Below are positions 45,335 to 50,818 of a stretch of DNA of 64,000 nucleotides, one piece after another. Position 1 is the stretch's first letter, and each line of letters starts with the position of its first letter. The notes under the pieces were generated by a model that did not search any database, was not told the DNA's origin, and saw nothing but the letters and a program-made list of their open reading frames with translations. Source of the DNA: Muribaculaceae bacterium (lineage in GTDB: Bacteria > Bacteroidota > Bacteroidia > Bacteroidales > Muribaculaceae); assembly GCA_017619355.1 (NCBI GenBank), contig JAFZSO010000059.1:80074-144073 (forward strand), read 5' to 3'. The position numbers and the translations under genes were made by a program.

Positions 45335-46645
45335 TTATGGTGCTATGCTACCCATAAATGCCTCAATGGCGTAGAGGGGCACATTCTGCATCCAGCCTTG
45401 GTCGATGTGAGGCTGCATGGAGAATCGCAACGACTGTTGCACTACCTGTGAATGTTTTTTTGCAAAGGTGGCTAGTGACTTAGACTTGACATTGGTTTCT
45501 GCTTTCACTTCGATGGGTACTATGTGGCTTCCTATCTGACATACAAAGTCAATCTCCAGGGTGGAGTTGAGTTTACTATAGTAATAGGGATAGATGTTAT
45601 CAAGAGCTTTGAGTTGTGTAAGTACATAATTCTCAGTAAAAGCTCCTTTGAAAATGCTAAACACATTTTCCTTTACCAGCATCTCGTCGGGCGAAGCGAC
45701 AGTCATAGCCCCCAACAACCCTACATCATGCATGAAAACCTTGAAGATGTCACGGTTGGCAAAGAACTTAAGCGGCAGTTCTACTTGTTTGATATTCTCA
45801 ACTTTGTATATTAGTCCTGCATCTTGCAGCCATTGCAAGGAATTGTCGAAATAACTTGCTCTGGCCCCCGATTTGACTGCTCCAAAGATGAACTTCTTGT
45901 TCTCGCGTGCCAAATGCTCGGGCACAGAGTCCCACACTAGTCTCACGCGTTGAGTCTCTTTGCCTGCGTGTTTGGCAAAGTCGCGCACATAGGCATCAAG
46001 TATTTCATGATGAATAGCTCTTACTCGAGATACATCGGCACCCTCTATATATTTTGTCACTGCCTCTGGCATCCCGCCAACAAAATAATAAAGCCTTAAC
46101 TCCTCGACAAAAATGTTGTGCAGCGGATTGATGATGTTCCAGTCAAGACTCTGAAGCACGTCAACAAGCTGCTGCTTGCCACGAGCCATGAGGAACTCCT
46201 GAAATGTCATGGGGTATAGACGCAGCGTCTCGACCTTGCCCACAGGGAACGATTGGCCTTGCAGGTTGAAAATGCCTAATAATGAGCCTGCTACAGCGAC
46301 ATGCAGACTGCGTGCATTCTCGCAGAAGTACTTCAGCGACGGCACTCCGCCGGGCAATTCCTGTATTTCATCAAGGAAAAGCAAGGTCTTGCCAGGAACA
46401 ATCTTTTGTAATGAATAAGCCTCCAAGCCAAGAAGAATGCGGTCGATATTGAAATCAATAGCAAAAAGCTGTTTTATTGCGTCGTTGTTCTCGCAGTTGA
46501 TATATACCATGTTCTCAAACTCATTCTTGCCAAATTCTTGCAAAATATAAGTCTTTCCCACTTGTCTTGCACCTTCAAGAACTAATGGCTTGTGGTCACT
46601 GCGTTTTTTCCACTCAAGTAGTTTGCTGTAAATAAGTCGTTTCAT
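45335..46645 (-). CDS. AAA_14/DUF4143 family ATPase
   Basis: This 436-residue protein has an N-terminal P-loop ATPase (Walker A GARQVGKTY near residue 25, Walker B LLFLDEIQEL near 90) and the DUF4143 C-terminal part. The last region contains a PD-(D/E)xK-like signature (STLEIDFVC then PIEVKAET). Proteins of this type are abundant and often multicopy in Bacteroidales genomes; their function is not settled. Its promoter overlaps the first of four 32-bp direct repeats, so it is likely to be controlled by a protein, possibly itself, that binds them. It is moderately AT-rich. Confidence 0.88.
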   Translation of the reverse strand: MKRLIYSKLLEWKKRSDHKPLVLEGARQVGKTYILQEFGKNEFENMVYINCENNDAIKQLFAIDFNIDRILLGLEAYSLQKIVPGKTLLFLDEIQELPGGVPSLKYFCENARSLHVAVAGSLLGIFNLQGQSFPVGKVETLRLYPMTFQEFLMARGKQQLVDVLQSLDWNIINPLHNIFVEELRLYYFVGGMPEAVTKYIEGADVSRVRAIHHEILDAYVRDFAKHAGKETQRVRLVWDSVPEHLARENKKFIFGAVKSGARASYFDNSLQWLQDAGLIYKVENIKQVELPLKFFANRDIFKVFMHDVGLLGAMTVASPDEMLVKENVFSIFKGAFTENYVLTQLKALDNIYPYYYSKLNSTLEIDFVCQIGSHIVPIEVKAETNVKSKSLATFAKKHSQVVQQSLRFSMQPHIDQGWMQNVPLYAIEAFMGSIAP

Positions 46646-46671: not shown

Positions 46672-46702
46672 CAAATTTACACTTTTATGAGCGAATGTGC
46701 AA
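46672..46702 (-). promoter_or_regulatory. Promoter for the AAA_14 gene
   Basis: On the minus strand TTG (46702-46700), a 20-base spacer and TAAATTTG (46679-46672). The first 32-bp repeat lies in the spacer. Confidence 0.65.
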
Positions 46703-46788
46703 GATTTTTTACACTTTTATGAGCATATAATTGTCAAAATCTACACTTTTATGAGCATATAATTGTCAAAAATTACAATTTTATGAGC
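46678..46788. repeat. 4 x 32-bp phased direct repeats over the AAA_14 promoter
   Basis: TACACTTTTATGAGC occurs at 46678, 46710 and 46742, and as TACAATTTTATGAGC at 46774. Spacing is exactly 32 bases each time, about three helical turns. Copies 2 and 3 also share the sequence between cores (ATATAATTGTCAAAA). The first overlaps the promoter. Confidence 0.85.
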
Positions 46789-46991: not shown

Positions 46992-47096
46992 ACGAAAGTG
47001 GTATGAAACAAAACGAAAGTAGTACAATCCTTAACGAAAACGGTACAATCCTTAACGAAAGCAGTATAATCTTTAACGAAAGCGGTATAACCTGAA
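46992..47096. repeat. 5 x 21-bp tandem repeats
   Basis: Five units beginning ACGAAAG (third unit ACGAAAA) start at 46992, 47013, 47034, 47055 and 47076, each 21 bases long with the consensus ACGAAAGYRGTAYAATC and then a TTA end in units 2-4. The period is two helical turns. They lie between the AAA_14 gene and ileS; the rest of the 46646-47322 gap holds no recognisable gene. Confidence 0.85.
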
Positions 47097-47257: not shown

Positions 47258-47322
47258 CACATTATTTTAAAAAAGGCTATTAAAACGGCTTGAAAAAGGC
47301 TATAAAAACGAACAAAAACTAT

Positions 47323-48345
47323 ATGAAGAAATTCAACGAATATAGCAAATTCAACCTCTCGGACGTGAACAAGAACGTCCTGAAACAGTGGGACTTGGAG
47401 AATGTGTTTGCACGCAGCATCGATGAGCGTGAAGGCGCTCCCGCCTTTGTGTTCTATGAGGGACCTCCCTCGGCCAACGGCATGCCGGGCATTCATCATG
47501 TGATGGCACGCACCCTCAAAGACATCGTGTGCCGCTTCAAGACCATGCAGGGCCATCAGGTGCTTCGCAAGGCCGGTTGGGACACTCACGGCTTGCCCGT
47601 GGAGCTGGGCGTGGAGAAGTCGCTTGGCATCACCAAAGAGGACATAGGCAAGAAGATTAGCGTCGACGAGTATAACGCCACCTGCCGCAAGGAGGTGATG
47701 AAATACACCCGCGAGTGGGAAGACCTCACACACAAGATGGGCTACTGGGTCGACATGAAAGATCCATATATCACCTACAAGAACGGCTATATCGAAACCC
47801 TGTGGTATCTGCTCAAGCAGCTCTATAACAAGGGCTTGCTCTATAAGGGCTACACCATTCAGCCTTATTCGCCCGCTGCTGGCACTGGACTGAGTTCGCA
47901 CGAGCTCAACATGCCCGGTTGCTACCGCGATGTGAAGGACCAGACCGTGACCGCACAGTTCACCGTGCCCGCTCAGGAGCATCCTGTGATGAAGGCCATC
48001 ATGGACAAGGCCGATGCCGGTTTCCAGAACCTGTATGTGCTGGCTTGGACCACTACACCGTGGACACTGCCCAGCAACACCGCCCTGTGCGTGGGTCCGA
48101 AGATCGACTATGTGGCGCTCGAGAGCTACAACCCCTATAACGGCAAGCCGGGCATCTACCTCATGGCCAAGGCTCGCGTCAGTGCCTACTTCAAGCCCGA
48201 GGGTGCCGAACTGCCCCTCGACAGCTACAAGCCTGGCGACAAGGTGATCCCCTACAAGGTCATCGCCGAGTTCAATGGCAACGACCTCCTCGGTCTGCAC
48301 TACAACCAGCTCTTCCCTGGGGAAACCCGTCGACAAGGTGGGTGA
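47323..48345 (+). CDS. ileS: Isoleucyl-tRNA synthetase, N-terminal part (frame broken)
   Basis: This frame encodes the first part of IleS, which charges tRNA-Ile: the HIGH-type motif GPPSANGMPGIHHV near residue 45, and the editing domain with LAWTTTPWTLPSN. Homology breaks off at NQLFP, after which the frame reads ETRRQGG and stops at 48345. The enzyme continues in another frame from GGG at 48320. I chose the ATG at 47323 (MKKFNEY) over an in-frame TTG at 47290. It is intact up to the shift. Read together with the next entry, the protein would be about 1,160 residues, normal for Bacteroidota. Confidence 0.9.
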   Translation: MKKFNEYSKFNLSDVNKNVLKQWDLENVFARSIDEREGAPAFVFYEGPPSANGMPGIHHVMARTLKDIVCRFKTMQGHQVLRKAGWDTHGLPVELGVEKSLGITKEDIGKKISVDEYNATCRKEVMKYTREWEDLTHKMGYWVDMKDPYITYKNGYIETLWYLLKQLYNKGLLYKGYTIQPYSPAAGTGLSSHELNMPGCYRDVKDQTVTAQFTVPAQEHPVMKAIMDKADAGFQNLYVLAWTTTPWTLPSNTALCVGPKIDYVALESYNPYNGKPGIYLMAKARVSAYFKPEGAELPLDSYKPGDKVIPYKVIAEFNGNDLLGLHYNQLFPGETRRQGG

Positions 48346-50818
48346 CCAGATTGTGGGCAACGACAACGGTTTCCGCGTGATTCCCGGCGACTATGTGACC
48401 ACCGACGACGGTACCGGCGTGGTGCACATTGCACCCACCTTCGGTGCCGACGACGCCAATGTGGCACGCGCTGCAGGCGTTCCCGCCTTGTTCCTCATCA
48501 ACAGGAAGATGGAGACACGCCCCATGGTAGACTTCGACGGCAAGTACTGGCGCATCGAGGACCTCGACCCTGACTTCGTGAAGAATTTCGTTAATGTCGA
48601 TCTTTACAAGGAGTATGCCGGTGCATTCGTCAAGAATGCCTACAATCCCAAGTACACCGTGGATGGCAAGTATGACGAGGTGGCCGCCAACAAAGATGAG
48701 GACCTGAACATCTACATGTGCATCCGCATGAAGCAGGATGGCACCGCCTTCAAGATTGAGAAGCATGTGCACAACTATCCGCACTGCTGGCGCACCGACA
48801 AGCCCATCCTCTATTACCCCCTCGACAGCTGGTTTATCCGCTCCACCGCCTGTCGTGATCGCATGGTTGAGCTCAACCACACCATCAAGTGGAAACCCGA
48901 GCACACTGGCACAGGCCGTTTCGGCAAGTGGCTCGAGAACCTCAACGACTGGAACCTGAGCCGTAGCCGCTATTGGGGCACTCCGCTGCCCATCTGGCGC
49001 AACGACGATGGCGAGGAGAAGTGCATTGGCAGCATCGAGGAACTCTACAACGAAATCGAGAAGGCTGTGGCAGCCGGCGTCATGAAGTCGAATCCCTACA
49101 AGGAAAAAGGCTTTGTACCTGGCGACTACAGCGAAGACAACTATAACAAGATCGACATCCACCGTCCCTATGTCGACGACATCGTGCTCGTCAGCGACAG
49201 TGGCAAGCCCATGAAGCGCGAGCTCGACCTCATCGATGTGTGGTTCGACAGCGGTGCCATGCCTTACGCACAGCTGCACTATCCCTTCGAGAACAGGGAG
49301 CTTGTTGACGAGTGCAAGTTCTTCCCCGCCGACTTCATTGCCGAGGGTGTGGACCAGACCCGTGGCTGGTTCTTCACGCTCCATGCCATCGGTACCATGG
49401 TGTTCGACAGCGTGGCCTACAAGTCGGTCATCTCTAATGGTCTTGTACTCGACAAGAACGGTAACAAGATGAGCAAGCGACTGGGCAATGCCGTCGATCC
49501 CTTCATGGCTATCGACAAGTATGGCAGCGACCCCCTGCGCTGGTACATGATCAGCAACTCGGCGCCTTGGGACAACCTCAAGTTCGACGAGGCTGGCGTG
49601 GAAGAGGTGGCACGCAAGTTCTTCGGAACACTCTACAACACCTACTCCTTCTTCGCCCTCTATGCCAATGTCGATGGTTTCGACCCGGCAACGGCCACCG
49701 TGCCCATCGCCGAGCGTCCTGAAATCGACCGCTGGATCATCTCGCTGCTCAACAGTCTCGTGGCACAGGTCACTGCCGACCTCGACGACTATGAGCCCAC
49801 CCGTGCAGCCCGCGCCATCAGCGAGTTTGTCAACGAGAACCTCAGCAACTGGTATGTGCGCCTCAACCGCAAGCGCTTCTGGGGAGGCGACATGACGCAA
49901 GACAAGCTTTCGGCCTACGTCACCCTGCATGAGTGCCTCACCACCGTGTCGCTGCTCATGGCCCCCATCTCGCCCTTCTACAGCGATATGCTCTACCGCG
50001 ACCTCACTGGCAGCACCACTTCGGTGCATCTGGCACTCTATCCTAAGGCCAATCCCGAGGTCATCGACAAGGCGCTCGAGGAACGCATGCACATGGCACA
50101 GACCATCACCTCAATGGTGCTCTCGCTGCGTCGCAAGAAGAACCTCAAGGTGCGTCAGCCCCTTACCTCCATCATGATTCCCGTGCTCGACGAGAAGCAG
50201 CGTGCTGCCATCGAGGCAGTGGGCAACCTCATCATCAACGAGGTGAATGTGAAGGATATCAAATATGTGGGCAACGACGAGGGCGTGCTTGTGAAACGCG
50301 TGAAACCCGACTTCAAGAAGTTGGGTCCGAAATATGGCAAGATCATGAAGGCGCTGGCTCAAGCGCTCACCACACTGCCTCAGGCCGACATCAACCGCTT
50401 TGAGCAGGAGGGTTCTATCACCCTCGATATCGACGGACAGCAGGCGGTGGTGGAAACTGCCGATGTGGAAATCATCAGCGAAGACATCCCCGGATGGCTC
50501 GTGGCCAACGAGGGCAACCTCACCGTGGCGCTCGACATCACCCTCACCGACGACCTGTGTCGCGAGGGCGTGGCCCGCGAACTGGTGAACCGCATCCAGA
50601 ATGTGCGCAAGAGCAAGGACTTCGACATCACCGACAAGATTGTGGTGCGCATCACCCCCGACGAGCGCGTCAACGATGCCGTGGTGCAGTTCAAGGACTA
50701 CATCGCACGCCAGGTGCTCGCCGTTTCCATCGAGTTGCAGGATGTTTCCAACCATCCTGACCGCGTGGAACTTGACATGGACGATTATATGCTTTATGTA
50801 ACTGTCGACAAGGCGTGA
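48320..50818 (+). CDS. ileS: Isoleucyl-tRNA synthetase, C-terminal part (frame broken)
   Basis: This frame continues IleS from GKPVDKVGDQ to the end: the rest of the editing domain (DDGTGVVHIAPTFGADD), the catalytic-domain motif KMSKRLGN (near 49467), the anticodon-binding domain and the C-terminal extension (TLDIDGQQAVVETADVEI). The open frame extends up to an ATG at 48275, but residues before 48320 are out of frame with IleS. Skipping one base of the GGGG run at 48319-48322 joins both parts. A DksA-like gene follows after 51 bases. Confidence 0.9.
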   Translation, partial: GKPVDKVGDQIVGNDNGFRVIPGDYVTTDDGTGVVHIAPTFGADDANVARAAGVPALFLINRKMETRPMVDFDGKYWRIEDLDPDFVKNFVNVDLYKEYAGAFVKNAYNPKYTVDGKYDEVAANKDEDLNIYMCIRMKQDGTAFKIEKHVHNYPHCWRTDKPILYYPLDSWFIRSTACRDRMVELNHTIKWKPEHTGTGRFGKWLENLNDWNLSRSRYWGTPLPIWRNDDGEEKCIGSIEELYNEIEKAVAAGVMKSNPYKEKGFVPGDYSEDNYNKIDIHRPYVDDIVLVSDSGKPMKRELDLIDVWFDSGAMPYAQLHYPFENRELVDECKFFPADFIAEGVDQTRGWFFTLHAIGTMVFDSVAYKSVISNGLVLDKNGNKMSKRLGNAVDPFMAIDKYGSDPLRWYMISNSAPWDNLKFDEAGVEEVARKFFGTLYNTYSFFALYANVDGFDPATATVPIAERPEIDRWIISLLNSLVAQVTADLDDYEPTRAARAISEFVNENLSNWYVRLNRKRFWGGDMTQDKLSAYVTLHECLTTVSLLMAPISPFYSDMLYRDLTGSTTSVHLALYPKANPEVIDKALEERMHMAQTITSMVLSLRRKKNLKVRQPLTSIMIPVLDEKQRAAIEAVGNLIINEVNVKDIKYVGNDEGVLVKRVKPDFKKLGPKYGKIMKALAQALTTLPQADINRFEQEGSITLDIDGQQAVVETADVEIISEDIPGWLVANEGNLTVALDITLTDDLCREGVARELVNRIQNVRKSKDFDITDKIVVRITPDERVNDAVVQFKDYIARQVLAVSIELQDVSNHPDRVELDMDDYMLYVTVDKA

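Follow-up and report, generated by a model that had tools for sequence, protein, structure and literature searches.

The question raised by this locus is what four phased direct repeats are doing on the promoter of an AAA_14/DUF4143 gene, and which protein might read them. Within the window, by which we mean the whole 64,000-nucleotide stretch of Muribaculaceae DNA that was analysed, the 15-bp core TACACTTTTATGAGC is exact at 46678, 46710 and 46742 and carries one change at 46774, with spacings of 32, 32 and 32 bp (Table 1), just as the initial annotation had described. The array scored 38 at period 32 in the 300 bp upstream of the window gene, whereas 2000 dinucleotide shuffles peaked at 14, placing it far beyond chance. 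Across the 64-kb window, 7 core matches with up to 3 mismatches were found against 1.12 expected, and none of 100 shuffles reached 7. When at most 1 mismatch is allowed, the host genome (89% complete) contains the core only in the four window copies, and at 2 mismatches there are 15 further places compared with 12 for a reversed control; no genome-wide scatter of the core, unlinked to this gene family, is seen. A coding repeat was ruled out because 32 is not a multiple of three and the array lies outside the gene, in line with the annotated view of the array as non-coding.

Promoter elements were assigned by a Bacteroidales-type -33/-7 consensus, which we take to hold at 46700-46702 and 46672-46679. 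On this assignment by consensus only, the gene-nearest core copy lies within TTG-20-TAAATTTG, that is, between the -33 and -7 type elements, and the TA of the -7 box forms the final two bases of core copy 1. The geometry agrees with the placement of the first copy in the initial annotation, and a site lying over its own promoter, as in an autorepressor operator, is found here, with the promoter elements again assigned by consensus only.

Table 1. Window coordinates of the repeat array, the promoter elements and the adjoining gene with its domains.
Feature	Position	Strand	Basis or remark
Core copy 1, gene-proximal	46678..46692	-	GCTCATAAAAGTGTA on gene strand; promoter overlapped
Core copy 2	46710..46724	-	sequence
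Core copy 3	46742..46756	-	sequence
Core copy 4	46774..46788	-	one change: GCTCATAAAATTGTA
-7 type box TAAATTTG	46672..46679	-	sequence and consensus
TTG, -33 type element	46700..46702	-	sequence and consensus; -7 box 20 bases on
AAA_14/DUF4143 gene, 436 aa	45335..46645	-	PADLOC PDC-S01, E 3.4e-168
STAND/NLR-like nucleotide-binding module, residues 1-317	45695..46645	-	Walker A 25-32, Walker B 88-95
PD-(D/E)XK nuclease fold, residues 318-436	45338..45694	-	domain folded alone
Residues 360-389, with E364, D366, E379, K381 and covarying positions	45479..45568	-	alignment and covariation

Two neighbouring features were also seen. A second array, of 21-bp units ACGAAAGYRGTAYAATC, occupies window positions 46992-47096 between the four-copy array and an ileS-like gene; units of this type have 49 matches at up to 2 mismatches genome-wide compared with 5 for a reversed control, are often clustered at spacings of 20-24 bp, and form a separate multi-site system. 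The ileS-like gene (named by eye, 47290-50818) is split into overlapping frames at 47290-48345 and 48275-50818, through either a frameshift or an assembly error.

The profile match of the window protein to PDC-S01 covers residues 1-429, effectively its whole length, with Pfam matches to AAA_14 (7.1e-29) and DUF4143 (2.1e-29), and PDC-S01 models match this protein and all 50 aligned relatives. Its N-terminal part is a nucleotide-binding, helical and winged-helix module like those of NLRs, CED-4 and archaeal ATPases, with both Walker motifs. Full-length comparison with the PDB gave little coverage of the C-terminal part; the C-terminal domain was therefore folded separately, and folded alone it shows a PD-(D/E)XK fold. 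The acidic pair and ExK of the nuclease motif are present, with E364, E379 and K381 invariant and D366 conserved in at least 90% of 50 sequences. We identify the window protein as an ATPase of STAND/NLR-like type that carries a PD-(D/E)XK domain and corresponds to the PADLOC candidate PDC-S01. The archaeal STAND ATPases SSO1545 (2fna) and PABY2304 (2qen) differ in that their match is limited to model residues 1-316, and we know of no operator array for either.

The repeats are not a local oddity, and those of the window are one example of a family-wide promoter-side array. Set 1 comprised 166 loci, most of those listed for the host genome, 25 relatives and 60 other members of the phylum; frames that were short or fragmentary had in some cases been dropped by hand. 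The gene was present in 161 of the 166 and at least 240 bp of upstream sequence in 160, with the gene start placed either at the first ATG or at the residue where the match begins. An array was scored when the upstream region exceeded all 200 dinucleotide shuffles at periods of 12-60, limits that were widened to 12-70 for PF01637 and to 12-110 for a test across three sets. Upstream arrays were detected by this test in 87/160 loci, against 4/160 when the opening 300 bp of the gene were scored instead, 3/153 for the region from -700 to -400, and 15/159 for downstream regions, where at least one is the array of a neighbouring gene; the other 73 of the 160 set-1 loci gave no array by the shuffle test. 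The same test was passed by 77/127 loci of a further Bacteroidales set and by 52/78 named GTDB loci (the testable ones among the best 80 of 582), against 4/73 for the -700 to -400 control in the latter. The GTDB labels include Bacteroidales, Lachnospiraceae, Treponema, Fibrobacter, Akkermansia, Kiritimatiellae and Phascolarctobacterium, labels that may err because many of the records are MAGs. Another family in the same genomes, SLFN_AlbA_2 (PF04326), yielded an array in 0/29 testable loci of 30.

Mobile elements carry such loci as well. On phage contigs 16/26 loci passed (26 of 29 being testable, with near-identical ones including L234/L237, L250/L251 and L252-L255), and 4/7 plasmid loci were significant, from Segatella copri, Acinetobacter towneri, Collinsella and Prevotella. 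Arrays were not significant at the plasmid loci of B. uniformis and B. thetaiotaomicron, which represent one plasmid kind, or of Vibrio. By eye, the B. thetaiotaomicron locus (L496, about 578-662) has two AAGTGCGGA(A/T)AAATGTA copies some 66 bp apart, equal to two periods, and it failed the array test despite these copies. A high-scoring DUF4143 subgroup (L013-L020 and L041-L054) had low array scores throughout. Taken together, arrays at two or three helical turns accompany this ATPase-nuclease family in several phyla. The initial annotation had expected the core itself upstream of homologues; related arrays are indeed there, but their cores are specific to subgroups and not common to the whole family.

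The spacing and internal structure of the sites follow a common scheme. Among the 246 spacings at 109 window-type loci, 33 bp occurred 177 times, 32 bp 58 times, 31 and 34 bp three times each, 66 and 95 bp twice each and 12 bp once, so that 241/246 fall at 31-34 bp. The suggestion that 32 bp, about three helical turns, would present each copy on the same DNA face agrees with the 235/246 spacings at 32 or 33 bp. The copy number at these loci was 2 (22 loci), 3 (49), 4 (30), 5 (4) or 6 (4). The periods are quantised: the 87 arrays of set 1 lie at 32-34 bp (63), 21-23 bp (16) or elsewhere (8), with none at 24-31 bp, and with periods up to 110 allowed in the three sets, the 211 significant arrays among 363 loci have periods of 31-34 (160), 64-67 (24), 97 (1), 21-23 (14), 46 (1) or other values (11). 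Aligned sites (97/122 window-type loci) read approximately TATTC, about six hypervariable bases, AAAA, mostly A or G, and TGT, with AAAA and TGT near-invariant. Palindromy of the window-type site showed no excess over control in 130 cores; those of Acinetobacter towneri (L493) and Collinsella (L495) look palindromic by eye. A TAnnTTTG box is within reach of 40/109 last copies compared with 32/246 other copies, and in 38 of at most 114 loci the TA ending the core of the last copy opens TAnnTTTG at one fixed offset, the same offset that core copy 1 of the window has to its -7 box. A CRISPR-like array, which would have unique spacers, was rejected because the linkers repeat too in strong arrays (L099, L101, L102 and L165).

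The sister STAND family PF01637 has arrays in 17/48 loci, one of which (L475) is probably shared with a divergent DUF4143 gene. Eleven of these 17 have a period of 51-54 bp, or about five turns (L207, L208, L210-L213, L227, L473, L479, L481 and L482), and several of the eleven consist of inverted-repeat units by eye.

The host genome has eight DUF4143 genes, seven of which, including the window gene, have a significant array at period 32 or 33, with no significant array at the eighth (L007). The cores of these paralogues differ, some being related (L001 with L003 and L006 with L008), and one regulator common to the family was ruled out because of this difference. The same genome contains an orphan array (L471, 2417-2532 on contig C25) with four TTCGTACATAAAA(G/A)TGT copies at 33 bp, flanked on one side by an AlkZ-rel gene and on the other by a YchF-like gene (named by eye), with no AAA_14 gene in the 5.2 kb covered. 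Its core type is that of an AAA_14 gene (L123) in a related genome, and the array is either what remains of a lost gene or a target in its own right.

Gene and array belong to each other. Among 79 arrays, the likeness of the cores and the class of period both track protein identity: a core z above 4 was found in 0.4% of 1506 pairs at 15-20% identity, in 24% of 119 pairs at 50-70% and in 86% of 14 pairs at 70% or more, the low proportion at 50-70% indicating that specificity also shifts between fairly close proteins. For pairs at or above 70% identity, the array mean z was 10.3 and 13.6 in two bins from which pairs with short arrays were excluded, and the flanks of the same pairs were mostly unrelated (5' z of 0.5 and -0.3; 3' z of 1.2 and 0.6). 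In 9/12 close pairs the stretch of similar DNA starts at the array and reaches almost to the stop codon, ending no more than 18 bases from it, and in the other three it stops 25-106 bases before it. Such linkage would also be expected if the repeats were the recognition ends of a small mobile cassette of array and gene, moved or homed by the nuclease, with the promoter overlap incidental. The extent of similarity in those nine pairs, the occurrence of gene and array in several phyla, on phage contigs and at four of the seven plasmid loci, the orphan array, and the same-core arrays that also lie downstream of the gene in L023, L027 and, inverted, L134 all fit a cassette. However, downstream copies are not a general feature of the 79 loci (matches to the own core scoring at least 13 in 8/79, against 3 for the reversed core), unconstrained flanks would be hard to recognise anyway at about 75% coding identity, and in 38 loci the last copy keeps one set position relative to the -7 box. 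We regard the cassette as improbable.

To ask which domain reads the array, we computed the mutual information shared by bases of the site and columns of the protein alignment at 86 loci. The strongest couplings join base 2 to residue 387 (z 8.0) and base 9 to residue 360 (z 6.8), and 7 of the top 10 fall within residues 350-405, which make up 54 of 428 columns. The coupled residues surround E364, D366, E379 and K381 of the PD-(D/E)XK motif, the positions that covary with core bases in residues 360-389 being 360, 362, 369, 373, 387 and 389. Of 91 array loci, 49 had a motif-fitting site, and 34 of these remained as an independent set after filtering to less than 75% identity to the first set and less than 90% to each other. 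Two of six tests were significant in this set: Lys or Arg at residue 387 went with T at base 2 in 20/23 loci against 3/11 (p 0.001), and Thr at residue 362 with C at base 6 in 10/18 against 1/16 (p 0.003). The remaining four leaned in the expected direction and were not significant in the independent set (residue 389, p 0.16; Asn-360, p 0.12; Lys or gap at 360, p 0.25; residue 369, p 0.30). Two associations were not repeated there, Pro-400 having gone with T in 10/14 loci before and with A in 10/15 in the independent set, and Arg-360 having gone with base T in 6/9 training loci and in 1/9 independent ones. An earlier, smaller set of 11 usable loci, from which the larger set contains loci, had given no significant base-residue test. 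Over 120 loci, the best partial predictors of site similarity were identity in residues 361-400 (0.195) and 381-420 (0.204), followed by residues 1-40 (0.104). In simulations on a tree of residues 1-340, the observed association was reached in 0-8 of 1000 runs for six pairs, a test that takes in the 86 loci used for choosing the pairs.

These data suggest that the likely reader is the nuclease-fold domain rather than the AAA part. Since residues of the active-site region vary with the bases of the array, it is probable that the protein recognises an address of its own and regulates the gene that encodes it, and the proposal that the AAA_14 product itself may bind the array gains support from this covariation between core and protein. 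A different cellular DNA-binding protein might occupy the array, but we give this only a slim chance, given that seven paralogues in one genome have arrays with different cores, that core similarity follows that of the protein and core bases vary with its residues, and that the same site scheme recurs in distant phyla. An intrinsically curved, UP-element-like promoter built of phased A-tracts, acting with no specific protein, would explain a near-invariant AAAA phased by three turns, but not the conserved non-A bases (TTC and TGT) or the hypervariable bases that covary with protein residues, and its probability is very small. A similarly minute probability attaches to the array being a nuclease substrate, cleaved in certain circumstances so that expression is switched off or changed, as the PD-(D/E)XK fold, the conserved E364, D366, E379 and K381 and their covarying surroundings might suggest, but a self-cutting site would be costly.

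We consider it likely that the array is the gene's own operator, which the product would bind through its nuclease-fold domain and so repress its own gene. A single-chain STAND/NLR-type ATPase would bind each core through the C-terminal PD-(D/E)XK domain, and the protomers, placed on one DNA face because the cores lie three helical turns apart, might touch each other via the STAND module. With the gene-proximal copy over the promoter, occupancy would repress transcription, keeping a potentially harmful nuclease scarce, and paralogues with different cores need not cross-regulate as long as gene and array remain together. The sequences show the arrays themselves, with their phasing, their link to the family, their overlap with the promoter, their gene-specific cores and their covariation with residues near the nuclease active site; direct binding, cooperativity, repression and a role in defence are inferred, the preference for repression over activation coming from the promoter overlap only. 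Autogenous repression of this kind most likely accounts for the promoter overlap, the whole-turn spacing, the paralogue-specific cores and the array-gene linkage, and it does not account for the loci with no array, the two- and three-turn classes and the trigger. A more speculative and rather unlikely extension is that in this NLR-like ATPase the nuclease effector also serves as the sequence-specific reader of DNA, making the protein a guard that watches its own operator. The array would then park phased protomers in a resting state on their own promoter, and occupancy could be lost through infection-driven changes of the chromosome or a phage DNA-binding protein; this loss would both derepress the gene and free the pre-arranged protomers to oligomerise and attack, with a readable residue-to-base code giving each paralogue a private address.

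If autogenous repression holds, an immune-type ATPase would use its nuclease domain as its own repressor, an unusual way of restraining an enzyme. For each protein the arrays offer a specific candidate DNA ligand that can mostly be read off the sequence, along with a candidate domain and residues, and the approximately five-turn arrays before PF01637 genes suggest a wider principle. Among known systems, plasmid iterons are direct repeats at whole helical turns beside the gene of their binding protein. Repeats at whole helical turns near the gene are found here as well, with binding by the product a plausible further likeness, but the adjoining gene encodes an AAA_14/DUF4143 protein and not a Rep initiator. 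MalT is a STAND ATPase that acts on repeated DNA sites, and a maltose-system entry (8bob) is in our PDB comparison list. However, MalT uses a separate HTH domain to switch on genes other than its own, whereas here the array lies on the promoter of the gene itself, with the nuclease fold as its probable reader.

PDC-S01 has been described as an ATPase fused to PD-(D/E)XK, a PADLOC phage-defence candidate and the fourth most common defence entry across prokaryotes (PMC12988326); it is among the most frequent candidate defence genes (PMC12988326, PMC13356809), and validation is pending for most PDCs of the core defensome (PMC12988326). The portions of these two papers available to us give no mechanism for it, and those of PMC12988326 describe no operator arrays or regulation. 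Nor did we find operator arrays of DUF4143, COG1373, AAA_14 or PDC-S01 genes described in the accessible parts of the open-access PMC literature, including, for arrays or their regulation, PMC12988326, PMC13356809, PMC4406477 and PMC12255303, which accords with the initial annotation in regarding iteron-style control as undescribed for the AAA_14 family. The closest published precedent that we found, as far as the available text of PMC12255303 goes, is RptR, a 9-kDa repressor of a defence island. RptR resembles the present system in that direct repeats overlap a defence promoter and it represses its own promoter, and differs in being a separate 9-kDa repressor and not the effector, with three 9-bp repeats containing TAGCTA that are not spaced by three turns (PMC12255303). 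Autogenous control as proposed here would apply to a large family and would probably work through an unusual reader.
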